Assembly: GCA_012845835.1 (NCBI GenBank)
Contig: JABAKD010000021.1
Span: forward strand, 10,423,199-10,487,198
Source: Undaria pinnatifida
Taxonomy: Eukaryota; Sar; Phaeophyceae; Laminariales; Alariaceae
Reading direction: 5' to 3'
Length of the DNA stretch: 64,000 nucleotides
Numbering within the stretch: the stretch's first letter is position 1; each line of letters starts with the position of its first letter. The translations under genes were made by a program, and so were the position numbers. The notes beneath the pieces were generated by a model. It saw nothing but the letters and a program-made list of their open reading frames with translations, made no database searches and had not been told where the DNA came from. Of this stretch, positions 1-47,826 are shown in pieces.

Positions 1-2870
1 ATGCGGGAATCACATACGTACGCCACATCCGCGCAAACGTCGCCTACAACTATACAAACCAGACAGCATGGCAGTGATCCGCACGAGTTGCGTTTCGAAC
101 CCGTATTTATGGCGTGTACAATAAGGGAAAGGGCTGAACAACTCACGGCCGACGTTCTTGACATATTTTTTATAAAATCATCTCCCTAGTTATTTGCCTT
201 CGAACTACGACCAAACTGGTTGTGAAAATTCAATACTTCGACATAGGGTTGAGCAGTTGTGGCAATGGTGCAAGGTTTTGCTGATGCACTGCAGGCAGCG
301 TGGGGTTCTCCGGCCGCTTAGGTTGGCGGAAACGCTTCCTCCTGGTGTTGGGGTTTCCTTCCCACGTAGCGTCAGTGTGCGAGAGCAGATTTTCTTCGAG
401 AAATCCGTTTCACTTCCAAGCTCAATCCGCGGGAGGTTTCACCCTTAAAACGGCCTCCTGGAGAAGTCGTGGCCATAGGTCACAGGTAGGTGTCTTCTAC
501 TCCCCTTCCCGGCACTTGCGCTTTTCCCGCTAGTATTAAACCAAAAACACTCGTGGGCCAGTGACTCCGTCATATCCATTGCAACCATACCCGAACTTGT
601 TGAAGTGATGTCGTGCGGGATGCTACAATGTGTGTTCAAGGGAGTACCGGCATAAACCGTATCCTTGAACCCCGAAATCTTCCCTACCCAGTAGAACTAC
701 AGTGCGTTTCTGCTGCTTTCTGCCTCAATTTCACACAATGAGAAATTTTTGACGTTTACCCAACGATGCCAAAAAAAGCGTCTCCCGCCCCCCAGTCCAA
801 TGGGAACAGTGAGCATATGACGAACACAGCAACAGTGAATGTAAAAAGGTAGTACCTGTCCATGTACTGGATAACCTCTACCTCCAGTGCCCGCCTGCAG
901 ATAGCATGGTTCACCCGTCGGTAAGCAAGGTGTAAAGGGGAGGACGGAGGCATGGATTAGATGCATCGTAGTTCACAGAACAACGTGTAAAGGCAGCAAC
1001 TGATTTGGAAGGTATCGACAAAAAGTGCACTTGTTGTAGACACCACAAATAACTACCGGTAATTGCTATTGTACCATACGGCGTTGTCGGATCTCCGCAA
1101 TGAAACATGTAGTGCGGCTTCAGGGCTAAGCCAAACAGCCAGCAAGAGGAACGTACTGTCGACCTGGGTAAACCGAGCAGTTGCATGAGTATTAGCTCCG
1201 AAAGCATTATTAAAGAAGCGGCGTTCCAAGGACAGGCGTGTTGGTCGGTGGCGTTCAAGAGGATATAATGCGGAGAACAACATGAGTAAGAACGTGCGTA
1301 CGTATGCGCTTGGGGCACCATCGATAACACTTGAAATAAGACGTATTAACGTACTCGAGACCGGCGACACGCAGCATGTCCTTTAAAAAAGAATTTCAAA
1401 TCCTCGGGTAAATCTGAGCGGTCACTGGGGTTGCGCTGGATGAAACGTACTTTCGAACTCATTCCAAAGTCCTAAACAGCCACGACAACGCAATACCCTG
1501 CTGCCGTGCTCTACGAGCCACATGAGATCGTTACCAACAGCGAACAGACAGGCTACTGACTACACAGTACGGGTACTGTGCACCAAAGCAGTTATCCACA
1601 ATATTACCCCTCGATGGAGGTGACATATCGGAAACTTGTATTGTTAACTTTCACAATTGATTACTCAATACCTTCGTTCTAACGTAACTACGTGCTTGGA
1701 ATCGTTTTCAATTGGCAACCTCAACATGTTCTCGTTTCGTTTCTCGAAAAACTTTCAACTTCATTCCTTGGCTATGTGTGCTTTATGCGCTGACTTTCCT
1801 GCGCTCCTACGTGTGGCATGCGTCTCTGGGGGAAGAGGTAAAAAGTTGGCACTTAGTGACTACTGCGGTGAAGCACACTTTTGTGACGATTGAGAAAACA
1901 CTAAGACATGTACGGGAAGGAAAGACGCCCATGTCGTCAACAGGTAGAAAACAACAAAGCGAGAAAAATGTTTGAAGAAAAACGTAATTGTGAAAACGAT
2001 GCGACGCATCATTCCGACATAGTACGCCCGACATATTCATCAATCCTACTGTTGTGCACAAATATAACGTGGCTGGACGTCACAGGGACTGAAACATCGC
2101 CTTCGCGTCTCGATCCCACCACAATGCAATCAGTACCCCTTATTATCGCGAACCGAAACAAAACCGAACCCTTTGCCCCTTTTTACCTTGTAGGCATCGA
2201 AATATGCGCCGGGAAGAATTTGCTCTGATTCATCACCACAGGTCTTCGAAAGCGTTGCATGGCTGTCTCGACGAGGTCTCCATTGCCGAGACTCATCGCC
2301 GCCTGGCCGACAGTCTTCCCCGATGTCGATAAGGACCGTCGCGACTGGAATAAGAAAACCATGGAAGGCGTGTCGACAAGGGAGCATGACAGGGCACCGA
2401 TTGGTATAAGAGATCTGCAAGCGGGAGAGGGACAACCGATGCAGATACATATATTACTATAATACGTCAACTGGGCTACGGCTCGTCGACTGGAGACGGC
2501 GATGACGGCGACAGTGTGTGCAAATCAATGCCAGACGCCGTGATGGTGTGTTGATCATATCGTCTTGTGGTGGTAAACTGTGTACAGAGCTATGGTGCAA
2601 TCTAGCGGACCCGTTATTGTAGGCAACGAAGAAGGTGGATTGGTCCATCTGCCTTTTCATTCGGCAACGTTGCCAACCATCAATCACCGTGATTAAGGCT
2701 GATCGATCAAGATCGGTAAGAACACGTCCGTCCGGGGGAGATTCTCGCCTTTGCCTCGTTTGGCGAGTTGCCCTGTAACTAGGGTCCCATTACGGTAAGA
2801 TAAGGTCGAAAACAAAATGGCAGCTGTGCCCCTCCCCATTGTAGTTCGTCATGTCTTTCCGTGCTACTTG
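1..2870. other. no gene recognised
   Basis: Only short, mutually overlapping open frames occur on both strands (the longest is about 140 codons), and none shows a domain, repeat or splice pattern that I recognise. I see no tandem repeat and no copy of the repeat families found elsewhere in the window. It may be intergenic or intronic host DNA. Confidence 0.5.
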
Positions 2871-2873
2871 AGA

Positions 2874-3245
2874 TCATCTTCGAAAAACCAGATACAAGAA
2901 GTTATACAACCCGATGATGATCATCGTTGTTGCTGTCAGGGATGAGTCAAGCCGCCTTACCGTGAAAGAACCGCGAGATGTTGCTGTCTTCGAGCTCTCA
3001 GAAGACGACGCGGAAGCCATCTCGTGCAACGCGGACATTTTGCTCGTCTTGACATTGCTGGACAGTACACTCTGCAACATCAATGATGCATCGTCGTTGG
3101 CGCCCTCGTTGTCGGCATCGTTTGGCGTGGAGGAGGACGGACTACTAAAGTTGTTGAAGCTCGAAGACATCGAAACTTCCGAAGACCGCCTACGTTGCGG
3201 TTCTTGCGATGGCCGCCTGCGTTCCGGGTTGGGAAGTGCCTCCAC
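2874..3245 (-). CDS. hypothetical Ser-rich protein or exon
   Basis: An open frame of 123 codons starts with Met and has an Arg-rich N-terminus, then a long Ser/Asn/Asp-rich low-complexity stretch, then a short hydrophobic C-terminus (around MIIIGLYNFLYLVF) that could be a membrane segment. The opposite strand is also open over the same interval, so openness alone is weak evidence. No family is recognised and no neighbouring exon can be assigned. It may be a chance frame; function unknown. Confidence 0.2.
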   Translation of the reverse strand: MEALPNPERRRPSQEPQRRRSSEVSMSSSFNNFSSPSSSTPNDADNEGANDDASLMLQSVLSSNVKTSKMSALHEMASASSSESSKTATSRGSFTVRRLDSSLTATTMIIIGLYNFLYLVFRR

Positions 3246-7099: not shown

Positions 7100-7154
7100 G
7101 GGATTGGAGACTTGGGTACGTGTGACTAAAATAGCTCTTTATCCGTTTGTTACA
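7100..7154 (+). repeat. 55-bp LINE-like fragment
   Basis: This matches 17,111-17,164 with only a few differences, and that second copy leads directly into a LINE endonuclease domain. Here the similarity stops after GTTACA, so it is probably a relic of the same non-LTR family or a small shared repeat. Confidence 0.5.
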
Positions 7155-7990
7155 TGGGGCTTCAGCCGGGATCCGTGTGGGTTGATAGTCTCGCTTGACG
7201 CAGGTAGAAGTACGGTCGTAAATGCGCAGGTAGAAGTGCAGCTGCATGCCGGGCCATTTTTGGTTAAAATAATTTATAGAATAGAGTATGGAAAAAAAGG
7301 AGTTGTCTAAATATGAATGAACTTTACAGGATGTTGAAGAGAATTCCATGGCAGTTCAACTCTATATTATCATGTTGAAAATTTCGCTCGTGTAGAAAAC
7401 TCTCGCTTGAAGCAGTATCACGAACCCCACACGCTGCAGGATAACCACAGGCAGACACCGCAGAAATAGAAGCAGCAATACAGCAGGCCGCATGAGTGAT
7501 GAGAATCGGTGGTCGTGATCTCTAGATAGTGAAGGCGAGGAATGAGACGCTTGATAGTTTATACATGATGAGGAGTCACGCAGTCCATGCTACGCACAGC
7601 AGTACATACAGAGAGCAAACGAGATTCTCCCCGCTTTGACTGACAGACTGTTTTCGGTATGCGATGCAGACGAAACGTTGGTACGTATGCATCAATGGTA
7701 TCAATTGCTCCGCAAAGCATGCATTTTTTTGCTTTCGTGCTCGTACTTACTCCTACAACGAGTACTTCGGTATTGTTGTACCAGGTATGTATGTCATCGT
7801 GCTGTATACGTGCGTATCATATGTTCTGTATGTCGTTTGTGATATGCTCTTGTTCTTTTTTGTGCTGCACCAGTTTTAACACCAAACTGGCCGGATATAC
7901 CTGATTTTGCCAGAAAAATATTTTTTGTTTGTTTTGGTATCAGTACGTACTCAATCGATAACGGATGAATACAGCAAGCGATGGTACAAA
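7155..7990. other. no gene recognised
   Basis: Only short overlapping frames are open. No domain or repeat family is recognised. Confidence 0.45.
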
Positions 7991-7992
7991 GC

Positions 7993-8026
7993 GATCTCAC
8001 AACTGGAGTGTATTTTAATTTTTACA
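7993..8026 (+). repeat. R4 3'-end fragment
   Basis: GATCTCACAACTGGAGTG followed by TATTTTAATTTTT matches the 3' ends of the longer R4 copies at 25,251-25,480 and 34,279-34,519. Only the terminal part is present. Confidence 0.5.
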
Positions 8027-8850
8027 CTATCCGTAAACCAGATTTTTCAATTTTTGAACTGGGAAAGATATGCATGCATCCCTGCCTGCTAGCAAGCCTT
8101 GCCTACATGCAAGTTGGGGGGGTATTTATGTAGGCAGGATGGTGAGAAGGGAGTAACATGGACTGTTGAGCTATTAAAATAATGTAGTAATAAAAATAAT
8201 ATACATTTGCTCATACATATACCTACTACTGCTGTATAGACTATATGGTCAAAACAGTGTACGGTTGTAAGTATAGAGTATTATATGTATACGTTATTAT
8301 TGGGGTTACTTGTTTGTTGCACCTTGTATAGCACGAGAAATCGATTGATCTGGAGGATTAGCAATTGCTGTACGGAAGAATAGTATACAGGTTGGTCTTG
8401 TTTATTGTACCTTGTATAGAATAGTAAACAAGTTGGTATTTATACTACGCGAAATCGTAATCTACGGGCTGGGTTATTTTGGAAAAATATAGCAAGGGCT
8501 GACTAAGTTTTATAAAATGTAGGTAGATTAAAGAATACGAGACCAATAGGACATCGGGAGAGGATTATCATCAGTGCCGATGACGAGTAAGTTCATACGT
8601 GATAAGTCACTGTAGGGATGTGCTTGCGTTCATTATACGGGTTGAAAATGACCTCGGGTCTGTTAGTTGATCTACACTTGTTGCATGTACTGTGAGACGA
8701 CCATAAGACAAGGGGTTTTTTGCAGGCAATTTGGTTTTGGCCTTTGTGATGGGGATTTTGTGTCTTCGCAGGTTGTATAGGCACTGCAACGTCGTTCTCA
8801 CAAGTGTTTCAAGAGTAGTGACACTGCAAAATGGTTCTGGCTTTTAATTT
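8027..8850. other. no gene recognised
   Basis: AT-rich DNA with many TATA-like strings and no long open frame. Nothing assignable. Confidence 0.5.
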
Positions 8851-8853
8851 TGT

Positions 8854-9186
8854 ATGGGGAATGTAAGCCTTTCTATAGCTGCTCTTTGTCATGCTAAGAA
8901 ATTACCGGAATTGGAAACATGGTTTAGGAACATTATCATATTGGAATGGGAAGGGGGGAAGCTTGATAAGTACGTTGGAATCTTGAGCATTGTAAATAAT
9001 GCATTCATGGAGGGGAAGCTTGATAAATACGTTGGAATTTTACGGATTGTAAAGAATGCATTAATATTAATTAATGGAAACAAAAAAACATTTCACATGT
9101 CAGTGGAGCTACACCCGACATGGGAACTACTGCATACAGTGGAGCTACATGGAGAGCTACTATACAAGCCCTTTCAAGGCGCGTAG
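8854..9186 (+). CDS. hypothetical 110-aa protein with internal duplication
   Basis: The frame opens with ATG and encodes a protein with a near-repeat: GKLDKYVGILSIVNNAF is followed after a short gap by GKLDKYVGILRIVKNAL. The DNA under it (8,955-9,070) is a two-unit tandem duplication of about 57 bp. A second small duplication built on CAGTGGAGCTACA lies at 9,099-9,160. The repeated unit keeps its frame and its changes are mostly conservative, which is mildly suggestive of coding. No family is recognised, and a chance frame over duplicated DNA is just as possible. Confidence 0.25.
   Translation: MGNVSLSIAALCHAKKLPELETWFRNIIILEWEGGKLDKYVGILSIVNNAFMEGKLDKYVGILRIVKNALILINGNKKTFHMSVELHPTWELLHTVELHGELLYKPFQGA
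8955..9070 (+). repeat. two-unit tandem duplication, about 57 bp
   Basis: Both units begin GGGGAAGCTTGATAA, contain TACGTTGGAAT and end near AATGCATT. A handful of substitutions separate them. Confidence 0.8.
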
Positions 9187-9189
9187 TAC

Positions 9190-9840
9190 TTTACTACAAA
9201 TAGCTATGCATGAATATATGTAGACCTTGAAACTTCATCGATTGTTGTGTTACGTATGGACGCTTATACCTCGATAGATGTTTACAAAATGATGGATTTT
9301 GCTGTTCCAAATTCGTTCAGATAATGTGTATGAAGGATGTACAACAATGACAGATATAGCTAATGCCTACAAATAGATTGATATGCCTTAGATACCTAAG
9401 GGGTTCCATACGTTACTCTGTTGGTGAAGACTCGAGCTTTCGGAGGGCAGCATTTCCGAAGGATTACATGTATATTATGATAAGGGGACAACTTTCAACA
9501 AAACAGGAAGGTAAATTTGCATGTACTCGAAACCTTTCACCACCCCTCTTTCCCACCCACCTTGTCCCAAGCCACTGTTTATACCCGTTCGGTGCGGACA
9601 ACTTGGTGTTACTAGACTCCATCGATCCCCTGGACTCCACTCGTCTCCCTGGACTGCATCGTTGGATACCGTCTTCACCTTATACGACGCAGCTTCGTCG
9701 AACACATCGTGTACTACTATCAGCCTCATCGAGTCCATCGCATACTGCACAGCTCCTACTGCAAAGCTGCATTCGTCGGATACAACACAGCGTCGTCGAG
9801 TCCGTCGTGTACTGCACAACTTCGTCGAGTTCATCTTTCT
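9190..9840. other. untranslated leader or intergenic DNA before Gypsy-1
   Basis: A pyrimidine-rich segment with repeated short strings (GTCGTCGAGT, TTCGTCGA, TGTACTGCACA) at about 9,690-9,840. I could not find a 5' LTR matching the 3' LTR at 16,725. This may be the Gypsy-1 leader. Confidence 0.35.
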
Positions 9841-9849
9841 CTACACGAC

Positions 9850-10490
9850 AGCAAAGCGAGAGGTTTCGTCAAAGGGAAACGGGCGGCGTCCCGGGGAGGG
9901 GGGAAGGAGTGATTGGAGGAAGTAACATGGCAGGAAGAGGGGGACCTTTTTGGGGGTCTTTTGGTGTACCTTACCCGAGGGGAGGCCCACCACAGGGAGG
10001 CCCGTCACAGAGCGGCCAGGCTGGCGGCCCACCACAGGGCGGCCAGGTTGGATGGGGTCCACAGGGTGGTGCAGGACAAGGGGCAGCAGGACTGGGAAAG
10101 ACATGCGTCCCTGCCCGCTAGTAAGCCTTGGAATGGCAAATCCTGTAGGAACGGGAGGCGGGTACAATCAGATGTCCGCTCCCTCCCTACCGTCACCGTT
10201 TGGAATCGGAGGACGATGGAGTCCACAGACAACCCTAAGAGGATCACCACCGAACCCTAGATCGCGATGGGGACCTCCAATGGCGCCAAGGTCGCTGGCC
10301 AACAACAGCCAGGGTTTGCTGGCCAACAGCAGCCAGGGTTCACTGGCCAACAGCAGCCAGAGTTCAATGATCAAACAACAGCCAGGGTTCGCTGGCCAAC
10401 AGCAGTCAGGGTTTACTGGTCAACAGCAGCCAGGGTTCAGAGAGTTCCTCTCGCCGATCGGGAATGGGAGCACTGCAAACTAAGAAGTCA
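9850..10490 (+). mobile_element. Gypsy-1 gag-like region
   Basis: Low-complexity Gly/Pro/Gln-rich coding (GGPPQGGPSQSGQAGGPPQG type), followed by Gln-Gln-Gln-Pro-Gly-Phe repeats. Placement before the protease and the composition suggest the structural (gag) region or its C-terminal part. No zinc knuckle was identified. Confidence 0.45.
10297..10440 (+). repeat. 24-bp tandem repeat, six units, inside Gypsy-1 gag
   Basis: Six near-identical 24-bp units of the GGCCAACAGCAGCCAGGGTT type encode an eight-residue GQQQPGF-containing repeat. The length is a multiple of three, so the frame is kept. Confidence 0.85.
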
Positions 10491-10599
10491 CAGGCTTGAG
10501 TTCATGCAACGTTGTGGCATGCAACGAGCTCGAGCCGGCGACTTCCGATTGCGGTGCTGGTGGATACTGAGAGGCGGGTGGAGGAAACTACGTGTCACG

Positions 10600-11290
10600 G
10601 CAGTTTATCGAACCCATTGAAGAACGTGATGGTTGGGGAAAGTCGCTGATAAATCCAACGGGAGACGGCCTACTCCGCGCAGCAAACCTAAAGAACAGCG
10701 CCGTACCCCCGATGGAAGTGGTAGGCTCGTGCTTGATGCCACTAGTCTTTGCACCGGTCGATCAAATCTTCCGTTTGAAGTTCAGGGTGGTAAAGGGACT
10801 TCCGTACGCGATGGTGCTTGGAGCCGCGTTCATGAAGGACAATCGAAGTATCATCAGCTTCGATGGTGAGGAGGGTTTCCGGCCGACACCATCCCCATCG
10901 TGGGTACCATTCGCCCCGAAGGAGGTCGGAGAGGCCGCGGCAGGAGCGATGTGTGCCGAATGGGACCACTATTGCGCGGTGAAACCGTCAACGGACGAGC
11001 AAGAACCGGAAGAATTGGAGGGATCGAAGATCCCGGCGGGGATTATGGAGTTAGGAAACTCTGTTTGGAAGGACGAAGGCACTCTGCACTGGAAACTACG
11101 AATTGCGAAAGACGTAGAGGTGCCAGGTGGTACCAGTATGCAGGTAGACGCTTTTGTCAAAGGCCCTTAACCTCAAGTACAGCAGCTCGTAGTGGTAGAG
11201 CCAACTAACCGCCATGATCTTATACTAGGAATGGATCTAAGAGTGCCAACGGGGGCACAGTTGTGGTCCCCGGGTATACCACTTTAATGT
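10600..11290 (+). mobile_element. Gypsy-1 retropepsin-like region
   Basis: The stretch FRLKFRVVKGLPYAMVLGAA resembles the second half of retroviral-type aspartic proteases (the conserved hydrophobic strand followed by ILG). It lies directly before the reverse transcriptase, as expected for pol. Confidence 0.55.
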
Positions 11291-11619
11291 ATGTTGTCGA
11301 ATGTTATCGAGGATAATGTGAAGATCCAGGGGGGGCTGGTGATTGCCACGGTTTACGCTGTTAACAATTACGATCGGGAACGCATGAATTCACTCATGAA
11401 CCCGGTGTCGGAAGAACCGACAAGCCCCAAACAGGACGACGGGATCAAAAAGAAAGACAAAGGGAGACCACCAAAGCAATGCAACAAAGGGGGTGAAATC
11501 GCAGAGGTTACGAGCGAAGCCCCCAAGGTGGACCTGGGAGAGGCCAACTTCGGACAGCTCAGTCCGAGCGAAAAGGACACATTGATGGGCATTCTCAACG
11601 AGTACATCGACGTGTTCGC

Positions 11620-12440
11620 GGTCAACCCCAAGAGCGTACCAGCATGCAAAGGGGTGCCCATGCGGCTGGAGCTCAAAGATCCCAACGTCAAGCCATACGT
11701 GGCGCCCATTCGACACTAAAGCCCGGAACAGCGCGAGATGATTCAGACTGAGGTGGTGAAGGTCCTGAAGAATGGATTCATTCGGGAATCAACTTCCGAG
11801 TGGGCCGCAAATTGTTCGACGGTTCGCAAGAAAGAGAGGACAGTGCGGGCTGTGCAGGATTTTCGAGGTATCAATTCGCTTCTCAAATCACAGAGTGGTG
11901 GACTGGGAGACTTGCAGCATATTATGGATGAGATGGAAGGGTCGAAGTATTTCTCCAGTATCGATTTAGCTTCAGGATTCTTACAGCTCGACATCCATGA
12001 GGACGATCGACACCTGACGGCATTTCGAGACGCTGACGGGAAGCTGTACGAATACGTTCGCTGCGGTTTCGGGTTGAAGACAGTGCCTTCGGCGTTTGCC
12101 AACTACGTTGGAGGGCGACTATTAACCGTCAAGGATAGGGGAATCAAGAGCTGGTTGTACGATATCGCCATCCCGTCGAAAACCCTTGAAGGTCAATGGG
12201 GACTGCTGCGAGAAACGTTAGAGTGTCTGCGGCAAGGACGTTCAACCGTAGATCTTCAGATATCGCATTTCTGTCAGTCGGTCATGGACTTCGTCGGCAT
12301 GATCGTGGATAGACTTGGTACCAGGCCGGCCCCGAGCAAGATCGATGCTATCACGCAGCTGTCCAGGCCGAACACGGTAGAGGAAGTGCGAGTGTTGCTG
12401 GGCATGACAGGGTACTTACGGCAATTCGTACCCCAGTATA
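11620..12440 (+). mobile_element. Gypsy-1 reverse transcriptase domain
   Basis: Typical Ty3/Gypsy landmarks are visible: a fingers segment with VQDFRGINSL, then FSSIDLASGFLQLDIHEDD, then YVRCGFGLKTVPSAF, and the connecting LLGMTGYLRQFVPQYS after the palm and thumb. These identify a gypsy-type reverse transcriptase that copies element RNA into DNA. Confidence 0.9.
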
Positions 12441-12589
12441 GCACAGTGGTGGCGCCCATTTCCGACTTGCTGAGAGATCCAGGGTTCAGAACCAAGAGAG
12501 CGAAAAAAGAGAAATTCCCATGGGGAGAAGAGCAGAACAAAGCTTTTGATGCGCTCGAAGCTTTGACGTCACCTCCAATCCTAGCCCTG

Positions 12590-12980
12590 CCGGTGTGGAC
12601 AGAACCGTTCTCGCTGTCCACCGATGCCAGTGAGATAGGAGCAGGAGCGGTGCTAACACAATGCATCGAAGGAGTGGAAAAGGTGATCGCGTACGGCAGC
12701 AAAAGGTGGTCGAGAGGAGACCCCACAAGGTCAGCAACGGACCGTGAATGCATGGCGGTCATGTGGGCAGTGAGCAAATTCCAACCCTATCTTTGGGGGC
12801 GACCGTTCGCGCTCATCACGAACTGTTCGGCGTTGACTTGGCTTTTCAAACGCCAATCTCTCACACCGAAATACCATCGCTGGGCTCTGAGGTTGATGGA
12901 GCACGACATAACTTTGAAGTGGAGGCCGGGGACACAACATCAGCTCCCAGACGCCATGCCGCGGTTACCGAACAAGGGCA
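12590..12980 (+). mobile_element. Gypsy-1 RNase H domain
   Basis: FSLSTDASEIGAGAVLTQ opens the domain, and RSATDRECMAVMWAV and ALTWLFKRQSL follow, as in Ty3/Gypsy RNase H. The segment ending near LPDAMPRLP corresponds to the usual end of this domain. Confidence 0.9.
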
Positions 12981-13204
12981 TCGTAATCGAAGATTTCGAC
13001 GACTCTTTTCCAGGAGACGAGTCGTTGCCAAACGTTTACAAAGGGCCACAGGGGCCAGTGCTCGACGGCGTACACCTCGAAACCTTAGGAGTGGAAGATG
13101 TGGACGGATCTAGTACTCAAAGTCTTACAGTACATGCAGCTGTCGCACTCACACCCGCAGACCCATCAGAGGCAGATACTCAACAGGCCAAGCTTGTCAT
13201 CGCA

Positions 13205-14125
13205 CCGGAGCTTCCAGTGGTGGTCATGCTCGACTGTTGGGGGGGAGGCAGCATCCTTGCATCAAAGGTTGCTGATGGTCAGAGGAGCAGTAGACCAGGA
13301 CTGGAGAGCACTGGATTTCATCAGAGCAAACGGACTGGACAACGGTGCGAAGCTACTTAGGGTGACAACAGGGTCGCAGGCATGCCTAACCATGTTGAGA
13401 GAGGTGAAAACAGACGTGGTGGTCGGTGACGCCTGCAGGAGGTTTGAAGGGATACGGGATACGAGATAAGGAGGGAATATCCAGAGCGAGTAGCCTAGCC
13501 CAAGCTGCCATCGCTTCAGACGCGCGAGTTTTCATACCCGAATGTTTGGGCAACCCTCTGCGATCGACGGAATGGAACGACGAGATTCTCCCCGCTTTGG
13601 AACGAGAGTTATACATCGTGGACAAAGCGGAGATACTAGCGAGCCAAGTAGGGATTCCGTGGAGGAGGAAACGGACATTCGTGGTAGGAATCAAGGGAGG
13701 CCTTGCCACAAAAGGGAAGTTAGCCGTTTGGAAGCGGGGGTTGGAGAAGGTCAAGCAACCAATTCAGGAATAAGGGAAACTTCTGGGACGAAGAGGCGCA
13801 TACTTCCTGAAGAAAGGTAACGGAGAGCGAGCGATTTACTCGTTCAACGAACCCATCATCTCTTTGAACCGTGCTCACATCATGGGGGAAAAGCCAACCG
13901 AAGGGTATATCGCACACCCAGCGGATGCGGCACGCCTTGAAGAAACCGAAGAGTTGCACTTCAACGACTACGCCAAAATCACCACAGGGCAGGAACACTA
14001 CATGATCCTGCAGACGGTTAGCAAAAGCGCAGCGGCAAACGTCATCGCAGATTTCACGTCTCCTCCAATGCTACGAGCAGTATTAGTTGAACTAGCTGTT
14101 CAAGGCTTACTGGGAAAACCGGTAC
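13205..14125 (+). mobile_element. Gypsy-1 C5-cytosine DNA methyltransferase-like domain
   Basis: Between RNase H and integrase are collinear blocks resembling C5-MTase motifs. They are a VVMLDCWGGG block near 13,215 (motif I-like), GAVDQDWRALDFIRANG at 13,284-13,340 (motifs II-III), GIPWRRKRTFVVG at 13,651-13,689 (motif VIII, the GVPQ-R-KR-FIVG pattern), GYIAHPADAARL at 13,902-13,940 (motif IX region, after an IYSFNEPIISL stretch) and TSPPMLRAVL at 14,056-14,086 (motif X). In host enzymes this family moves a methyl group from S-adenosylmethionine to cytosine C5. The order and spacing fit one methyltransferase of about 300 residues captured into pol. Like the rest of Gypsy-1 it is broken; I claim identity, not activity. 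Confidence 0.75.
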
Positions 14126-14149
14126 CAGAGGTCGCGGAACTAGAAGGGT

Positions 14150-14660
14150 TGGCCTGCATGGTGGTCGACGATTACCTCGCAGCATCAAAAGCCTTTGAGG
14201 TGACAAGAGCGATCACGAGATCGCAGGCAAAGGCCACTTCCCAGGAACCGGAGGTTGTCTGGGAGGCAGAACCGCCGTTACCTGAGGAGGAGAAGATGGA
14301 GAATGCAACGGCGCAGACGGTCACTACTACTAAACTACCAGTGGAAGTTGATCGCCCACGCAAACGCAGGGGACAGAGAGAGCCCATCCCGAAACCGAAA
14401 CGGCAACGTGATCCGTGGGAGGAATCACCAAAGGACACCAGCAGCCGTTCAAGCGGATCAGGGAAAGAGGCCAAGGGACCCCAGCGGTCAGAGCCATCCA
14501 TGTTGGAAAGGGTGACAGCTATTCTCCAGGATTTGCCACAGCTGACGCAGAGGCAGTGCGAAGATATGGTACTTGGCAAGATTCGGAAAGAAGTCCAGGA
14601 AGCGGGAAACCGAGGATCAGGAGATATGGCGAATATGTGATGGATGATAAAGGCCTTTTG
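14150..14660 (+). mobile_element. Gypsy-1 linker between methyltransferase and integrase
   Basis: A charged, low-complexity stretch containing a basic cluster (RPRKRRGQREPIPKPKRQR) that resembles a nuclear localisation signal. It connects the methyltransferase-like domain to the integrase. A role in nuclear import is only an inference from composition. Confidence 0.4.
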
Positions 14661-14689
14661 TGGGTAGCACCTCGGGGAAAGATCCCACG

Positions 14690-15800
14690 ACTTGCAGTTC
14701 CCCGATCTCTCGTTCCAGGGATTATGGCGCTGGTGCACAGCACCTGTGGGCATCTGGGGACGGCGAGAACTACAGCCTTGATTAGTCATCGGTACTGCTG
14801 GCCCACCCTCATCAAGGACGTTAGAGACTACGTCCTCTCGTGTGGGTGCAGACGTCGCAAGCGGTCAGCGCGTCAACGGGTTGCCATGCTACCGTCGAGG
14901 TTTCTACGACCCGGGGAAGTACTCGAAGTCGACATCCAGGACATGAAGGGTGAAGTCAGACGCAGGCAACAAAGTTCTACTGGTAGCAGTCGACAAAGCC
15001 AGCAAGTTCTTGTTCGCCTTTCCACTCCCTACGAAAGAAGCAATCGGAGTAGCGAGGAAACTGCTCGAAGTGATGCTTACTTTTGGGCTACCGCTGTATG
15101 TTCGCAGTGATCCGGGATCCGAGTTCACGGCAGAGGTGATGCAACACTTATGTAAGTGGTTGAACGTGACCATCGCCTATGGGCCTGCCGTTCATCCACG
15201 TGCACAGGGGACGGTGGAGAGACTGGGGGGGTGGCTACACGAAGCACTAGGAGAACTGTGTAAGACCTGGCCTCGCAGATGGGACGAGTTCGTACAACCG
15301 GCACTGTGGATCCATCGTACCACGCCGAACCTGCGCTTACCGGGGAAGTCAACTCCCTTCCGTCTTTCCTTCGGTCGTGATGCACGCACGCAACTTGATG
15401 CTACGCACCCCGAGATGGTGGTGGGGTGGGATGCACAGTTACGTGGCCGACAAACGTCAAGCGTACAAAGAGGTACGGGGTGTACGGATGGCTCTATCGA
15501 AAAGACATGAAGACAGGCAGAAAAGTCGTGAGAGTCGGAATGCTGAAATCGGTCGGACCTCGGTGGGAACCCGTGTTGATGTCGGAGATAAGGTGCTGGT
15601 GAAGGAGGCGGAGTCTGTGATGACAAGGGAAGGGATATATCATAAACTAGCCCATGAGCACTGGACCGGACCTTGGAAGGTGACTGAAGTTGTCTTACCA
15701 GGACTCAGCTACATCGTCACAATGAATGGGCGAGGGATCCGCCGACGACGGGCGTCAGCATCGAATATCAAGATGTTCCACTTACGTCCGGACGACCTCC
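14690..15800 (+). mobile_element. Gypsy-1 integrase
   Basis: A zinc-binding HHCC-type region lies at about 14,736-14,860 (HSTCGHLGTART, later CGCRRRKR). The catalytic core follows, with VDIQDMKG at about 14,927, VRSDPGSEFT at 15,103-15,130 and GTVERLGGWL near 15,210, which fit the D, D, E positions of retroviral-type integrases. The C-terminal part, WTGPWKVTEVVLPGLSYIV, is the GPY/F-like module common in Ty3/Gypsy elements. Confidence 0.85.
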
Positions 15801-15885
15801 GTCACGACTTCGAAAACGAATTTGCTCACCTGGCATGGGGAGTTGACTTCGGACTGGCGGAGCCGTCGATTGTAGCGTCGCCTAT

Positions 15886-16066
15886 GTATACCCTAATAGA
15901 CAGAAAGGCTGTGATGGGTCAAGGCAACGCTTGGAAGTGGCGATACAAGGAACCATTCGTGGATGGCACGGAGTCGCAGTGGCTGTCCGAAGAGGAGGCA
16001 CGAGACAGTTTCACCCCTTTACAGCTGGACGTTTTCCATGCGCTGTGGGAAACGTATCACGGAGCG
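15886..16066 (+). mobile_element. Gypsy-1 chromodomain
   Basis: YTLIDRKAV, then WKWRYKEPFVDGTESQWLSE, then an amphipathic end with FHALWETYHG, follow the chromodomain plan (strand, YKV-W aromatic strand, W-E turn, C-terminal helix). Chromodomains bind modified histones and can steer integration of chromoviruses to particular chromatin. Confidence 0.65.
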
Positions 16067-16237
16067 GAATGCCGGGCAAGACCAACTTCGACGCTAACGA
16101 GGAAGGAAAGAGATGGGATCGACCGCGAACAAGCGTTGAAACAAAACCCCGTGGGGACCGTGATCTGGAGGGAATTCGCGGACGCTGAAGGAAACAACAA
16201 GAAGCGTCACCTTTCAAAGGTCTTCGACTAAAAGTCA

Positions 16238-16300
16238 CCGTACTGGCGGGTTCGGTACGCAGACGGAGATTGGGAGGAGCTCAACAAACGTGAAATCCTG
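16238..16300 (+). mobile_element. Gypsy-1 DGDWEEL segment
   Basis: The stretch YWRVRYADGDWEELNKRE resembles the short aromatic cores of Tudor-like or chromo-like readers. It lies just after the chromodomain region and is probably a second reader module or its remnant. Confidence 0.4.
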
Positions 16301-16715
16301 AAACGTAGGAGAACCGGAAATTCGCAATCCGATTCCCCGTAAACGTGGAACGTGAAGTGGAGGCTGATCGAGAAAGGGAGAAGACATTGGCCGGAGATCG
16401 ACCAGCGAGGAGGATCAAGGCCTCGGCCTACCCGGGTTAATGGGAAAAGCCGGGAAGTGGTGGATAAGAGGCTTTAAGCTGGTGCGCTTGATGAGAAATA
16501 CTAGCAAGTCCAGCAGTACCGATCTGGGACCTCATGTGAAAAAAGCGCGAGGCCTAGGGTCCCTACCCCCTGAGAGACGCCTATCCATGAACATGTTAGA
16601 CGCCACTCATTCGAGCCTTAGGGTAATCGAAACACGACTGAGTGTGGGAAAAGGCCCTCACTCTTACTCCAGTGTATCGGCAGCCCGGTTAGCACGATAT
16701 TCCTAAGAAGCCGTG
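16301..16715 (+). mobile_element. Gypsy-1 3' untranslated region
   Basis: Non-coding element sequence between the last pol segment and the polypurine tract. No second gene is recognised here. Confidence 0.5.
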
Positions 16716-16724
16716 CTGGGGGGG
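16716..16724 (+). other. Gypsy-1 polypurine tract
   Basis: A run of G (TGGGGGGG) ends exactly where the TGTTGC start of the 3' LTR begins, the position expected for the plus-strand primer of reverse transcription. Confidence 0.65.
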
Positions 16725-17037
16725 TGTTGCGGCGGATTGACATGACGTCACATGAAACACCGTCGCGGAATACTGCCTAGGTCTGTATAACGCCGATCAG
16801 TCTAGAAAGCGTGCCGCTCACGGCCTCAGTCCAAAAACACACAAAACCAAACGAGGGAAAAAGGAACGTGAACTTGATCTGACTGGAGCGTGAGTGACTG
16901 CGAACCGAGCTTGAGTACAGCGATCGTTACCGTGAGGCATTGTTGGAGGTTTCATCCGGAGATCTGTTATATTGTACGAGCGCTTGGAAGAGGACTGCTT
17001 GAGACGAGACTGGTGTTTGCAGGCAGCTGTTGCAACA
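16725..17037 (+). repeat. Gypsy-1 putative 3' LTR (313 bp)
   Basis: It begins TGTTGC and ends GCAACA, a perfect 6-bp inverted terminal pair of the TG...CA type, and follows the polypurine tract. It contains TGACGTCA at 16,743-16,750. No second copy was found in the window, so the 3' boundary rests on the terminal pair alone. Confidence 0.6.
16743..16750. promoter_or_regulatory. CRE-type site in the Gypsy-1 LTR
   Basis: TGACGTCA is the palindromic site bound by CREB/ATF-type bZIP factors. It sits 18 bp inside the LTR, in the U3 part where element promoters usually lie. A single 8-bp match can arise by chance. Confidence 0.3.
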
Positions 17038-17110
17038 AGCAGACGGGAGGAATCAGCCTGAAGGTAGACACGGAGGAAACGAACTAGAAGGGGTGAGAGA
17101 GTTGGGACAA

Positions 17111-17690
17111 GGGATTGGAGACTTTGGTACGTGTGACTAAAATAGCTATTTATCCGTTCGTTACATTCGTAATGTATTCCAATGTGGTGTATTTTTCACC
17201 AACATCCATGCGGTTGATTTTTGTGGTATCGTACGCACCAACTGAATGCACCAAGTATGCCGAGGTGATACGAATTTTCTGGCGAGAGTTGGAGGATTGG
17301 GTTCAACAGAGAGATGGAGTTTGTCTTTACTTAATTATAGACGCTAACGAACGGACTGCGTGGAGGGTGTGTGTGTGCAGTATGGTAATTACGACAGAGT
17401 ACTTGGAGCACACGGTCGTGACGTGAAAAACAATAATAACGTTGAACGGCTCCTCCTGTCGTTTGCTACCATTGGCAAGCTTGCAATCACCAACATTTTT
17501 TTCAGCCGACGCAAGGAAGGGCGGAGTATCGCATACACACACGCCCAAATGACCGCAAGCGGGTAGACTATGCACCCTCACACGCCAAGCCAATCGTTCT
17601 AGGGTACACGACGTTACCGTCCACCCAAAGCCTCCAACGCGAGACAAACCGGACTCAGACCAACCATATCATAATGTTGCTGTGACATTT
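17111..17690 (+). mobile_element. LINE (non-LTR) endonuclease fragment
   Basis: The translation shows the endonuclease/exonuclease/phosphatase fold of LINEs: RLIFVVSYAPTEC (the YAPT motif), then LYLIIDANERTAW in the position of the GDFN motif, then NVERLLLSFATIGKLAITN and FFSRR, and finally RKRVDYA and a TNHII segment near the terminal SDH position. The reading frame changes near 17,370-17,400 and again near 17,565, so it is a decayed fragment. No LINE reverse transcriptase is found nearby. Its first 54 bp match 7,100-7,154. It starts about 75 bp after the Gypsy-1 LTR. Confidence 0.75.
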
Positions 17691-21309: not shown

Positions 21310-21385
21310 GTTGGCCTAACGTCGCTCGCCGTCCTTTTAATGTCCAGCCTAGTGTCGCTCGCCGTCCTCCCAACGTCCATTGCTG
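21310..21385 (+). repeat. two-unit repeat, GTCGCTCGCCGTCCT type
   Basis: GTCGCTCGCCGTCCT occurs twice about 40 bp apart, each followed by a TTAATGTCC or CCAACGTCC segment. It sits immediately upstream of the palindromic minisatellite. Confidence 0.6.
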
Positions 21386-21454
21386 CTGCGCCTTTGCTTG
21401 CGATTATGTTTTGCGCGTTGGGTGGGCCACCTGCACTACCTGCATTTTTGGTGG

Positions 21455-23005
21455 AAGCTTGTGAAAGCTTCCGTGGAAGCTTTCACGACTTCCATGGAAG
21501 CTTCCACGCTTCCATGCCGTGGAAGCTTCCATGAAAGCTTCCACGGAAGCTTCCACGGAAGCAAGTTCCACGGATACTTTCATGAAAGCTTGCACGGAAG
21601 CTTCCACGGAAGCAACTTCCACGTAAGCTTCCATGAAAGCTTCCACGGAAGCAACTTCCACGGAAGATTCCATGGAAGCAACTTCCACGGAAACTTCCAT
21701 GAAGACTTTCACGGAAGCTTCCACGGAAGCAACTTCCACGGAAGCTTTCACGAAAACTTCCACGAAATCTTCCACGGAAGCAACTTCTACGGAAGATTCC
21801 ACGGAAGCAACTTCCACGGAAGCTTTCATGAACAATTCCACGGAAGCTTCCACGGAAGCAACTTCCACGGAAGCAACTTCCACGTTAGCTTCCATGAAAG
21901 CTTTCACGGAAGCAACCTAACCCTAACCGTAACCCTAACCCCAACCATATCTTCAATGGAAGCTTCCACGGAAGCTTCCATAAAAAGCTTCCGTAGAATT
22001 CACTTCCATGAAAGCTTCCATAACTTCCGCGAAAGCTTCCATTACTTCCATGAAAGCTTCCATGGAAGCTTTTGTGGAAGTTCCTTCCATGGAAGCTTTC
22101 GTGGAAGCTTTCGTGGAAGCTCCCGTGGAAGTTACTTCCGTGGAAGCTTTCGTATATTCCATATCTTCCATGGAAGCGTCCACGGAAGCTTCCATGAAAG
22201 CTTCCGTGGAAGTTACTTTCATGAAAGCTTCCATAACTTCTGCGAAAGCTTCCATTACTTCCATGAAAGCTTCCATGGAAGCTCCCGTGAAAGTTGCTTC
22301 CGTGGAAGCTCTCATATGTTCCATTTTTTCCATGGAAGCTTCCATGGCAGTTCCATGAAAGTTTTTATGGAAACTATGGAAGCTTCTATGGAAGCTTTCA
22401 TGCAAGCTTCCACCGCTTCGATTGCTTCCATGGAAGCTTCCATGGAAGCTTTAATAGCTTCCATATCTTCCATGGAAGCTTCCATGAAAGCTTCTGTGGA
22501 CGTTTCTTCCGTGAAAGCTTCCATAACGTCCACGAAAGCTTCCATTATTTCCATGAAAGCTTCCAAGCTTTCGTGGAAGTTACTTCCATGGAAGCTTTCG
22601 TGAAAGCTATCGTGGAAGCTACGGTGGAAGTTGCGCCTGTTGAAGCTTTCATTTCTTCCATATCTTCTATGGAAGGTTCACGGAAGCTTCCATGAAAGCT
22701 TCCGTGGAAGTCATTTCCATGAAAGCTTCCACAACTTCCGCGACAGATTTTATTGATTCCATGAAAACTTCCATGGAAGCTTTCGTGGAAGTTACTTCCA
22801 TGGAAGCTTTCGTGGAAGCTTTCGTGGAAGCTCCTGTGGAAGTTTCTTCCGTGCAAGCTTTCATATCTTCCGTATCTTCCATGGACGTTCCACTGCTTTA
22901 ATTGCTTCCATGAAAGCTTTCATGGAAGCTTCCGTAGCTTCCATATCTTCCGTGGAAGCTTCCATGAAAGCGGTGAAAGCTTCCACGGAAGCTTTCATGA
23001 GTTTC
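21455..23005. repeat. 1.5-kb minisatellite of GGAAGCTTCC palindromes
   Basis: The whole block is built from a roughly 12-bp unit, GGAAGCTTCC plus AC or AT, so AAGCTT palindromes alternate with CCATGG-type junctions. Because the unit length is a multiple of three and each unit is self-complementary, long frames of repetitive Ser/Phe/His/Gly or Glu/Ala/Ser/Thr/Met/Lys composition stay open on both strands. These are by-products of the repeat, not genes. A CCCTAA-type patch interrupts it at 21,914-21,946. The unit is CACGG-rich before the patch and CATGG/CGTGG-rich after it. Confidence 0.9.
21914..21946 (+). repeat. interstitial telomere-like repeat
   Basis: About five tandem CCCTAA-type units with small variants (CCGTAA, CCCCAA) lie inside the minisatellite. 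CCCTAA is the complement of the TTAGGG telomere repeat used by many eukaryotes. Confidence 0.75.
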
Positions 23006-44234: not shown

Positions 44235-44490
44235 TTGGTATGCAGACACAGGTACCGCTTTCCACATGACAGATTGTCTCTCGTGTATGAAGGATGTGAA
44301 GCCTTGCCACAAGAATGTAAAGGGAATTGGTGGCGTGACTTGTGAGGTAGCTCTTTCAGGAACTCTGGAATTGGTGTTCGTGTCTGCTGACAACGAGTTT
44401 TTGGTAGAGTTGAAGAATGTGCTGTACTGTCCCAAATTGGGGTACAACTTTTTTTCCCCCAGCGCAGAATTTGATGGCGAGTCATGAAAT
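44235..44490 (+). mobile_element. Copia protease region
   Basis: WYADTGTAFHMTDCLSC matches the DSGAS-HM active-site region of Copia proteases, and LVELKNVLYCPKLGYNFFS is the usual downstream strand (VLYVP-L--NLLS). Confidence 0.8.
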
Positions 44491-44649
44491 GGTCTTGGTG
44501 GTCCTCGTGGTGTGATTACTGCTTTCCACGGACATGTGACTTTTGAGAATTTCGATGGCATGCTTGTTGCGACTACGTATCGTGTGGGTGATGACTCTAT
44601 TGGATCCGTGTTGGCTGCCCTCACTCCTTCAAACCCCAAGCACGAAACG

Positions 44650-45350
44650 AGTATGGATGTGAATGACTTTCATAACATTTATGCCCACTCACATGAAGGA
44701 TTGCTTCGTACTACTGCAAAACGACTGGGTATCAAGTTGACTGGTAGCCTAGATGCTTGTACGGGATGTTCGATGTCGAAGGCAATTAGAAAAGGGATTG
44801 CTCGTGAAACTAAATGGAGATCAGATAAAAAGTTAGGAAGATTTTATGTTGACCTGGGAGGGAAGAAGGCCGTTGTGTCCATAGGGGGAAAGCATTACCC
44901 CATGATTGTGAAGGATAATTTCACAAGGCGAGCATGGATCTTTTTCCTGAGAAGTAAATCAGAAGCTGCGAGTGCTTTCCGGAGTTCTCTTTCTAGTGTG
45001 CGTGCTGATGGAATCCCATCATTGGTTGAGACTGTTAGATCTGACAATGGAGGGGAGTTTTTCGGTGGAGAATTTGCATCTGTGTGCAATGAGTTCTTGA
45101 TTAAGCAAGAGTTCCCAGCTTACAGTCCTCAATACAACGGTGTTGCAGAGCGTGGCTTGGGATCGATAGAGGAGGCCGCAATGGCGGCTCGTGTTCAGGC
45201 GAAAGTTCTTTTCGGGCATGTACGGTTAACTAAGACTGACAAACTCTGGGCTGAGGCAATGCACTGGGCTTGCGAGGCACTTAATCACACGGCTTGTTCT
45301 GCAAACCCCGATTCCAAGTCGCCCTATGAAATGTGGTATGGGGAAGCTCG
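44650..45350 (+). mobile_element. Copia integrase
   Basis: The zinc-binding pre-integrase segment has HNIYAHSHEGLLRTTAKRLG and CTGCSMSKA. The core shows YVDLGG, then VRSDNGGEFFGGEF, then YSPQYNGVAERGLGSIEEAA, in the D, D, E arrangement. It would join element DNA to the chromosome. Confidence 0.9.
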
Positions 45351-46190
45351 TCCTGCTAAACCTTATCAATTTTTGAAACCGGCGTACTGCAAGTGGCAGC
45401 GACCGTCGAAGCTGTTTCCGAAGGGTGAGAGTTGCTTTTATGTCGGTCCTTCGAGAGACCACCCGCGTGATTGTCATAGAGTACTTACGAGGGCTGAGAC
45501 TATTCAGGAAACGAGGGATGTAACGTGGGAGGCGTTGCCGTCACAACTCCCTCCACCGCAACCTCCATTGCCGATAGAGATCGCGGAGGAGGGAGGGGAG
45601 GAAAGTGACAACGATGTAGAAGCCGAGGTATGGCCGCTTGTAAGGAGGGGAGTTGCCCACACACTGTTGCGAAAAAACGCGGCAGTGGTCCCCTCTGGTG
45701 CAGCAACGAACGAGGTAGTGGTCCCCCCTGGTGAAGCAGTCGATGTGGTTGAAAGTGTTGACGCAGAGAGTGTAGGTCGATCGCCGTTTGCCCCCTCTGT
45801 GCCATCTTCGCCCGTTCCCTCTGTGTCGTCTCCAGCACCTGAGTTCACCGATGGTGAGGGGCAGGGAGGGCAAGATGTGGGGGAACTAGAGTCGGTGGGT
45901 CCTGAAGAGCAGGATACAGAGTCTGTAGGGCCGGGAGGGCAGGAGGCAGAGGCAGAGACATCTCCTCCAGTTGCTCGTCGTCCGCGGCATGTAGCTGAGC
46001 TAGCTGATTTCAACAACCCTGCGCGTGAGAATGATGAAGTAAGAGAAGGTAGAACTCGCGCGCAAACCCGTGCAGTTAACCAGCAGAATGTATCTGGCCT
46101 TGTGGCCACTCTAGGGCCCGTCTGCGCAACAGAGATAATATATGCGCTGTTGGCGGAGCAGAGAGCAGGTGACGCAGTGGAATTGCCGAA
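45350..46190 (+). mobile_element. Copia integrase C-terminal and linker region
   Basis: A GKAG-like segment (FPKGESCFYVGPSRDHPRDC) is followed by a long acidic, Pro/Val/Glu-rich linker with low-complexity repeats before the reverse transcriptase, as usual in Copia elements. Confidence 0.7.
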
Positions 46191-46219
46191 AGAACTAGTG
46201 CAGGACGTAGAGTCTGAGC

Positions 46220-47010
46220 CTGATAGCTATCAAGAAGCCCGGCAATTGAAGTACGCCACGATTTGGAACGGAGCTATGTCTGCAGAAGTTGAAGGCTTGA
46301 TAAGGGCAGGAACGTTCACGTTAGCGGTAAAGATCCCAATAGGCTGTAACGTGATAGATGCTAGATGGGTTTTCAAATGGAAAGCAGACGAAACAGGAAA
46401 GATAGTGAAGGCCAAGGCTAGGCTTATCGCGAAGGGCTTCAGGCAGAAGTATGGTGTAGACTATCTTGAGACTTTCTCGCCTACTGCAAATCCTGCATCA
46501 ATTCGATTGTTGGTAGCATTGGCGTGCAAGTATTATTTGGAATTACTCCACTGGGACATTGAGCAGGCGTTTGTTCAGTCGAAGTTGGATCACGAGGTGT
46601 TCATGAAGTTGCCTCCTGGCTGTGGTTCGATGTCAGGAAAGGTTGTCCGTCTGAACAAGAGTTTGTACGGATTGCAGCAGGCATCTAGAACATTTTACAA
46701 GAGGCTAGTATCGGATCTAAAGAGGATTGGTTTGGAGCAGTCACTGTGTGACCCCTGTGTGCTGCGTTTCATGATGGGAGACGAGGTGATAGGGATGGTC
46801 GCGATTCACGTGGATAACATTCTGTATGCAGGAACTAAGAGTCTTGCCAAGGTGGTTGTAGAAGCTCTAGGCGATTCTCTTCCTACGAAGAATTTGGGTG
46901 AGGTCAAGTTCTTTCTTGGTTGCGCATTTATTCGCGACCGCGAGGCTGGCACGATTGAGATTTCTCAGGAGAGTTACATCAGGAGTGTGCTCGAGAGATT
47001 CAAAATTTGT
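46220..47010 (+). mobile_element. Copia reverse transcriptase
   Basis: The RVT_2-type pattern is clear: NVIDARWVFKWKADETGKIV, KARLIAKGFRQKYGVDYLET, LLHWDIEQAFVQSKLDHEVF, RLNKSLYGLQQASRTFYKRL and an AIHVDNILYAG palm segment. These are Copia-specific landmarks. Confidence 0.95.
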
Positions 47011-47289
47011 CGCACCAGCCCGATCCCTGCTTCCCCTGCTAACGATAACAGGTCCGTGATGAAGGATGAGGAGGCAGGAGATGTGCCGTTCCGAGACGTG
47101 GTGGGGTGCCTGATGTGGGTCGCCAATGGGACGAGGCCAGACATCTCGAATGCTGTGCGGGCGGTGGCGCGGCACTCTCATGAGCCAAAGAAGAGAGACT
47201 GGAAGACAGCTCAGAAGATTCTGAACTATCTTCTGGAAACGGCACATCTAACTCTGGAGTACAAGAGAGACAGTACGGTTAATGACGTA

Positions 47290-47710
47290 GGCACGTTGGT
47301 GTACGTAGATGCAGACTTTGCCAGCAAGGCCACTGACCGTAGATCAGTTTCGGGAGCACTAGTTATTGTGGCTGCCTGCCTTGTAGCTTGGCTTTCTTGG
47401 ACGCAGAAATGCGTTTCGCAGTCGACTTCTGAGGCAGAGTATCTTGCGATGGGCGATGGTGTGAAGGAGTCTCTGTTTGTGAACGGAATGCTTCAGTTCT
47501 TGAGGTCTAGTGTGGAGCCTCGTAAAATTGACGTCCTTGAGGACAACGAGGGAGCGATTGCGCTTGCAGAGAATCCGCTTAGCTCGAGCAGGAGTAAGCA
47601 CATCGACGTGAGGCACCACTTTCTTAGAAATCTGACCGAGGAGGGTGTGACCGAGATCACGCATGTTCCCAGCGAAAAACAACATGCGGACGTCCTCACG
47701 AAGGCTCTGC
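47290..47710 (+). mobile_element. Copia RNase H
   Basis: VYVDADFASKATDRRSVSGA, then SQSTSEAEYLAMGDGVKES, then EDNEGAIALAENPLSSSRSK and HIDVRHHFLRN, with the terminal HADVLTKALPR, are standard Copia RNase H blocks. Confidence 0.95.
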
Positions 47711-47826
47711 CGAGAAGTATTTTTGAAGTTCACCGTGACTTTGCATTGGGCTCTAGGAAGTAGGAATCTGATCTATTTTTGTTTGTCATACTGCATGTTG
47801 TGGGTCTGGTAGATACAAGAGCCCCT

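Follow-up and report, generated by a model that had tools for sequence, protein, structure and literature searches.

C5-cytosine methyltransferases (C5-MTases) borne by retrotransposons have been described in two lineages whose hosts methylate DNA, and for these dinoflagellate and charophyte elements self-methylation of element DNA has been proposed (PMC5890265, de Mendoza 2018). KnitGypsy-Dnmt3 of Klebsormidium nitens is an LTR/gypsy element with several copies, DIRS-like repeats and a Dnmt3-related domain in its Pol ORF; the key residues of this domain are reported as conserved and its Ka/Ks as below 0.2 (PMC5890265). In Symbiodinium, C5-MTase domains are borne by the retrotransposons SymbioDIRS-Dnmt3 and SymbioLINE-Dnmt; the SymbioDIRS enzyme was shown to methylate CG, and most of the Symbiodinium genome is CG-methylated (PMC5890265). 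Among brown algae, gypsy elements of Ectocarpus have been reported with NADAR, chromo- or Tudor domains; in the material compared from that source no C5-MTase domain is reported for them, and the single DNA methyltransferase domain mentioned is of the N4C/N6A type and lies in a Sola1 DNA transposon (PMC12477816).

Here we describe a C5-MTase-related domain in a Ty3/gypsy element of the kelp Undaria pinnatifida, found in a stretch of 64,000 nucleotides (the window). As in the elements of de Mendoza 2018, the domain lies in frame in a retrotransposon Pol and is present in several copies. The kelp element shares with KnitGypsy-Dnmt3 the LTR/gypsy class, the position of the domain in the Pol ORF, the several copies and some sign of selection on the domain; it differs in that the PC and ENV signatures are altered in the kelp families, with four catalytic residues kept in family 1, that a copy with ordinary LTRs (L034) is present, and that the host lineage is reported to be without DNMT1, DNMT3 and DNMT5 (PMC5890265, PMC13076208). 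The Symbiodinium elements belong to other classes than the kelp gypsy (PMC5890265), and the Ectocarpus elements resemble it in carrying extra domains in a brown-algal gypsy Pol (PMC12477816). No report of a C5-MTase domain in a brown-algal retrotransposon was found in the titles and abstract openings of the best-ranked open-licence literature. The kind of element has been known since 2018; what is new here is the altered active site together with a host lineage reported to lack DNMTs.

The Ty3/gypsy element of the window

A broken Ty3/gypsy element was found at window 7100-17166 (Table 1). Reverse transcriptase (RT) and RNase H, both inside the open frame 11720-13357 (Pfam), are followed by integrase in the order of Ty3/gypsy elements, and the window has a 3′ LTR and a remnant of the 5′ LTR, with an LTR pair in L034 (L-numbers denote loci in the Undaria genome). 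The two LTRs of L034, of 433 and 444 bases, align with 430 identities, 11 gap columns and 3 substitutions, and since there are only 3 substitutions L034 is taken to be a recent insertion. The 5′ remnant of the window matches L034:525-901 at 93.9% and L034:7893-7948 at 98.2% (blastn).

Table 1. Features of the Ty3/gypsy element in the window
Feature	Position	Strand	Evidence or remark
5′ remnant	7100..7476	+	last 56 bases of 5′ LTR (7100-7155) and sequence after the LTR
Reverse transcriptase (PF00078)	11858..12304	+	Pfam E 3.4e-9, in ORF 11720-13357
RNase H (PF17917)	12599..12901	+	Pfam E 1.1e-27
C5-MTase-derived domain	13205..14112	+	tblastn with the domain of an open copy; sub-threshold Pfam; hhalign with shuffles
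Open block with motif VI-/VIII-like stretch	13408..13770	+	PF00145 E 0.0043, profile positions 124-168
In-frame TAA inside the C5-MTase-derived domain	13771..13773	+	
Integrase zinc-binding domain (PF17921)	14697..14861	+	Pfam E 4.1e-14
Integrase core (PF00665)	14959..15195	+	Pfam E 2.9e-8, 34.4 bits over cut-off 32.6
3′ LTR	16725..17166	+	blastn to 5′ LTR of L034 (148-580), 93.0%

An earlier note, made from the letters of the window, had placed a C5-MTase-like domain at 13205-14125 in a gypsy pol, between RNase H and integrase. Pfam, tblastn and hhalign bear out a C5-MTase-related domain at this place, with RNase H before it and the integrase zinc domain after it, and with homology to open copies ending at 14112 (tblastn). 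That the element is broken, as the note had also said, is confirmed: the domain of the window copy is spread over three frames, with one frame change between 13239 and 13267, another at 13456-13460, and the TAA.

About 3 kb of the window element (7477-10438) is absent at that place in L032-L034 and largely present in L031. This segment contains most of a QQPGF-repeat stretch (10277-10463) and perhaps also gag, so that some copies with an open pol may be without gag. At the other end, the C-terminus of integrase (window 15251-16228) has a GPWKV stretch and a tail, with no Pfam match over cut-off. By its pattern the tail may be a diverged chromodomain.

Homology of the domain to C5-cytosine methyltransferases

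Searches with single sequences gave weak matches. When the domain of the window copy was searched in four pieces against Pfam, one piece, the open block of Table 1, matched the DNA methylase family PF00145 with 17 bits, and the other three had no PF00145 match. PF00145 was the top match in four of five open copies (E 5.8e-4 to 2.3e-3, 17.8-19.8 bits), and the fifth had no Pfam match at E<=1. The curated PF00145 cut-off of 22 bits was reached neither by the window pieces nor by the five open copies, so the PF00145 search which the earlier note had proposed returns matches, all of them below threshold (17-19.8 bits). The NCBIfam model TIGR00675 was weakly matched in all three open copies tested (E 0.02-0.07), and PHROG DNA-methyltransferase families in both copies tested (best E 0.0027 and 1.1e-4). 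The weak matches in all three collections name DNA methyltransferases first; on their own they would not carry the case for homology. PDB sequence searches gave nothing sensible (one returned a single ribosomal protein at E 2), and a phage search with the window block returned two hits, both to a single phage methylase (E 0.6). Scans of IMG/VR (84 pattern matches) and of prokaryote genomes (39), with the matches checked by tblastn, found no close relatives of the domain; they started from exact peptide patterns and so reach close relatives only.

A kelp profile of 53 rows, made from the query and from Undaria loci that in part overlap (33 rows kept by hhalign), was aligned with 10 diverse C5-MTases at a score of 67.3 (95.6% probability, P 1.1e-8, 158 columns); the best of 200 column shuffles scored 22.8. 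Against 23 phage C5-MTases of one group the score was 41.1, with 200 column shuffles at or below 21.9 and the reversed profile at 13.3. Against single reference proteins the kelp profile scored 18.7-35.8, and two of the ten (18.7, 23.1) were no better than the best alignment shuffle. The alignment to the 10 C5-MTases, with 25% identity over 158 columns, is collinear over motifs I to VIII: motif I is matched by D-C-G-G-G-G, motif II by A-V-D-Q-D-W-R-A-L-E, motif IV by G-D-A-C, ENV by L-E-C-L and motif VIII by G-I-P-W-R-R-K-R-T-F-V-V-G.

The earlier note had seen collinear blocks resembling motifs I, II-III, VIII, IX and X. When the profile was split, residues 1-100, aligned at 3-48 (motifs I and II), scored 29.9 (best of 60 shuffles 18.5) and residues 95-190 (motifs VI to VIII) scored 44.5 (best of 60 shuffles 14.1), so that these two blocks stand separately. 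Residues 186-301, the supposed motifs IX and X, scored 14.0, below the best shuffle at 17.5, and motifs IX and X were rejected as evidence in their own right. The kelp domain is thus like bacterial and phage C5-MTases (PF00145, COG0270) in its collinear motifs I, II, IV site, VI and VIII, and unlike them in that motifs IV and VI are altered and its C-terminal part is not significantly alignable. Judged by these profiles, window 13205-14112 is a domain descended from C5-cytosine methyltransferases.

Copies and families in the Undaria genome

The genome searched has 68 contigs with 511,146,479 bases in all. In it the 121-residue block had at least 140 matches at E <= 0.001, with 150 of 226 candidates scored. 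Merged, these make at least 115 places, spaced by more than 2.5 kb, on 27 contigs; many of these hold the block only partly. Five copies (L009, L010, L011, L012 and L017) have the 301-residue domain without stop or gap, the first four being 95-97% identical to L017. Within the stretches examined, the frame is open for 1367 aa in L009 and 1093 aa in L012 (RT/RNase H into integrase), 1053 aa in L010 (RNase H into integrase), 966 aa in L017 (RT to linker) and 909 aa in L011 (end of RNase H into integrase). The L010 linker (2672-3184), which follows the domain, contains a strongly basic stretch (RPRKRRGQREPIPRPKRQR), and Pfam finds nothing in L010:2360-3180; the basic stretch resembles a nuclear localisation signal.

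At least three families of the domain were found by a search with a divergent copy and by tblastn. Family 1, to which the window copy belongs, is the most numerous; family 2 comprises 13 loci, with measured identities of 32-44%, and family 3 five, with 33-44%, and L024 and L025 are further divergent copies. RT/RNase H, domain and integrase occur in the same order in family 2 copies and in the divergent L024. For family 3, no RT or integrase match was found in L021, and the other four of its five loci are only 1.4 kb long.

Between families 2 and 1, identity was 43-65% for RT (seven loci with a match) and 50-59% for integrase (six loci with a match); over eight loci it was 32-39% for the N part of the domain and 48-55% for the C part in seven, with 33% in L057. 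Broken copies were compared, so the lower identities are partly damage. The polyprotein still carries the domain, and its C-terminal half is better kept than its catalytic half between these two families; the part with the catalytic residues, at 32-39% versus 48-55%, changes fastest.

Some copies have lost most of the domain. A DNA search with the junction of L073 scored 40 places, of which 12 match across the junction and 28 end at the breakpoint. Nine deletion copies (L073 and eight others) share breakpoints within a few bases, and the deletion removes 714 bases, starting shortly behind the motif IV site and ending past the domain. In L073 the frame stays open at the junction, seven of the eight further copies have a stop just behind it, and L173 is otherwise damaged. 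The subfamily was considered as proof that the domain is dispensable and was rejected as such, as only L073 of the nine copies is open at the junction. Because of the stops in seven of the eight further copies, the subfamily probably moves with the proteins of full copies, and it therefore says little about the need for the domain.

Altered catalytic motifs

The catalytic roles of the motif positions are those of M.HhaI-type enzymes. In 10 of 10 reference C5-MTases motif IV has P-C and motif VI has ENV. The corresponding signatures are D-A-C and E-C-L in family 1, and H-A-C and Q-C-T in family 2. Counts for family 1 are drawn from 43 loci, fewer being readable at each position: Cys stands at the catalytic position in 35 of at least 40 readable loci, mostly after D-A, motif VI retains its Glu in 40 of 42, and in motif VIII (GxPQxRxR) each Arg is kept in 40 of 42, with Gln replaced by Trp. 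All four residues, Cys, Glu and both motif VIII Arg, are present together in 31 of 40 readable copies, and the glycine-rich motif I is retained. In family 2, Cys is present in 13 of 13 loci (mostly as H-A-C, once as P-C), and Gln replaces Glu in 11 of 12. Pro before Cys was seen in none of the listed family 1 loci and in one of 13 family 2 loci. Family 3 has no catalytic Cys in any of its five loci (a gap or Glu instead) and keeps Glu in three. All three families have altered catalytic signatures.

Selection on the domain

Pooled pairwise pN/pS, with broken copies included, was 0.65 for the N part of the domain (39 copies), 0.46 for its C part (39), 0.55 for RT/RNase H (16), 0.49 for integrase (25) and 0.57 for the linker (42), values which mix the life of active elements with decay after insertion. 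Variants shared by at least three copies gave 0.27 for the domain, 0.11 for RT/RNase H, 0.17 for integrase, 0.25 for the linker and 0.42 for the stretch before the domain. Variants in exactly two copies gave 0.65 in the domain and 1.05 in the linker, and singletons gave 0.64-0.79. For the domain, 27 nonsynonymous and 34 synonymous shared variants (at least three copies) stand against 288 and 124 singletons (Fisher p 1.3e-4, a guide only as the copies are not independent). These shared variants suggest purifying selection on the domain, weaker than on RT. Selection acted on the frame while the elements were mobile, but constraint on the domain does not clearly exceed that on the linker. As the constraint looks weaker than on RT and like that on the linker, and two-copy variants stand at 0.65, a function of the domain's own is no more than putative.

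Methylation in the element and its host

Brown algae, Undaria among the species covered, are reported to be without DNMT1, DNMT3 and DNMT5, and DNMT2 is the sole DNA methyltransferase reported for the lineage in the part of the source used (PMC13076208). For Saccharina japonica, about 1.4% methylated cytosines have been reported and ascribed to DNMT2 (PMC6916402).

A footprint of methylation was sought over 2.9 kb in 42 copies and the reference L034, using columns with exactly one deviating copy. Transitions were found at 76 of 362 CpG, 72 of 292 CHG and 183 of 868 CHH positions; CpG (76/362) showed no excess over other C/G columns (255/1160, p 0.72). The element has a CpG observed/expected ratio of 0.96-0.97, and two further stretches of the window have 0.97-1.03. 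With no CpG-transition excess and a ratio near 1, lasting CpG methylation of the elements is unlikely; the footprint is blind to methylation of RNA or of transient cDNA. The lack of excess agrees with the reported absence of DNMT1, DNMT3 and DNMT5 (PMC13076208). The suggestion of the earlier note that the domain links the element to a host silencing mark is thus not borne out, given this absence as reported, the altered catalytic signatures and the lack of CpG-transition excess.

An exon-by-exon PF00145 search of the Undaria genome returned two matches only, both short pieces, and DNMT2, expected from the part of PMC13076208 used, was not found by it. The two matches, at G000:C33:9584045-9584356 (L051) and 9595022-9595297 (L052), are separated by 11 kb and sit in short frames, of which one has an internal stop, and a sub-threshold MYND-finger match adjoins one of them. 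They could, as a guess, derive from a large DNA virus and not be host DNMTs.

Possible role of the domain

We consider it fairly probable that a C5-MTase was taken into a gypsy Pol and then altered, and that the domain now serves in binding or tethering and probably does not methylate DNA. A Ty3/gypsy lineage of Undaria would have taken up the C5-MTase between RNase H and integrase, presumably before the families split; the Pro-Cys and Glu-Asn-Val signatures would then have changed, with one family losing the catalytic Cys. The domain would no longer methylate DNA and may act in Pol as a nucleic-acid-binding or tethering module which, for instance, could hold the cDNA end or the target DNA beside integrase. 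The pseudo-enzyme DNMT3L, which works by binding and not by catalysis, offers an analogy. This explanation builds on the homology, the position in families 1 and 2, the copy number, the motif changes, the selection on shared variants and the CpG null, each of which the data support directly. As parts of the active site are altered and the lineage is reported to be without such enzymes, the domain is probably not an ordinary DNA methylator. Against a binding module stand the four catalytic residues kept in 31 of 40 readable family 1 copies, which a pure binding module would not need, and the methylated cytosines reported for S. japonica (about 1.4%, PMC6916402) count against the explanation as a whole. 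It is conceivable, though we put this more tentatively, that a whole gypsy lineage of brown algae held on to a C5-MTase fold in Pol while its hosts lost DNA methylation, or even after that, and that the fold, its catalytic site altered, gained a new role in retrotransposition, the families standing at different stages of losing the catalytic residues.

Because family 1 keeps these residues, we rank second, as rather unlikely, a working C5 methyltransferase, unusual in its motifs IV and VI, which methylates element cDNA, RNA or target DNA during retrotransposition. The retained motif I glycines, the copies with a frame open across the domain and the selection on shared variants would fit such an enzyme, but the signatures found in 10 of 10 references have changed, Gln stands in place of Glu in 11 of 12 family 2 loci, family 3 is without Cys in five of five, and CpG transitions are not in excess. 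It is less likely still that the domain is a decaying relic whose role was lost with brown-algal DNA methylation and which is kept only since its removal would disturb the polyprotein. The faster evolution of the catalytic half, a shared-variant pN/pS resembling that of the linker and the 714-base loss at 12 places would all be expected of a relic; however, families 1 and 2 are about as similar in the C half as in integrase (48-55% in seven of eight loci versus 50-59% in six), and seven of eight further deletion copies, having a stop after the junction, are probably helped by full copies. A chance or general Rossmann-fold resemblance to methyltransferases is already largely refuted and highly improbable: although all Pfam and NCBIfam matches are below cut-off, PDB searches gave no sense, the C half has no significant similarity and two of ten single-protein scores do not exceed a shuffle, two sub-regions each beat 60 of 60 shuffles, the whole domain beats 200 of 200 at nearly three times the best, and the weak matches name DNA methyltransferases first.

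In Undaria a C5-MTase-derived domain persists in a lineage reported, in the part of the source used, to have no DNA methyltransferase but DNMT2 (PMC13076208). The kelp case separates two ideas which are hard to separate elsewhere, namely that the domain marks element DNA and that its fold aids retrotransposition in another way, and the two can be tested since the families differ in their sets of catalytic residues. It also suggests that censuses reporting the absence of DNMTs in brown algae miss methyltransferase-derived domains borne by transposons.

Other features of the window

An integrase fragment of another retroelement was found at 60382-61143 (rve E 4.5e-5, 24.1 bits, under cut-off), and a Copia-type pol frame of 1091 residues at 44488-47763 (RVT_2 E 9.9e-48). 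At 21353-22603, on the + strand, there is a tandem-repeat frame of 416 residues, rich in SFHGS/SFHES units.
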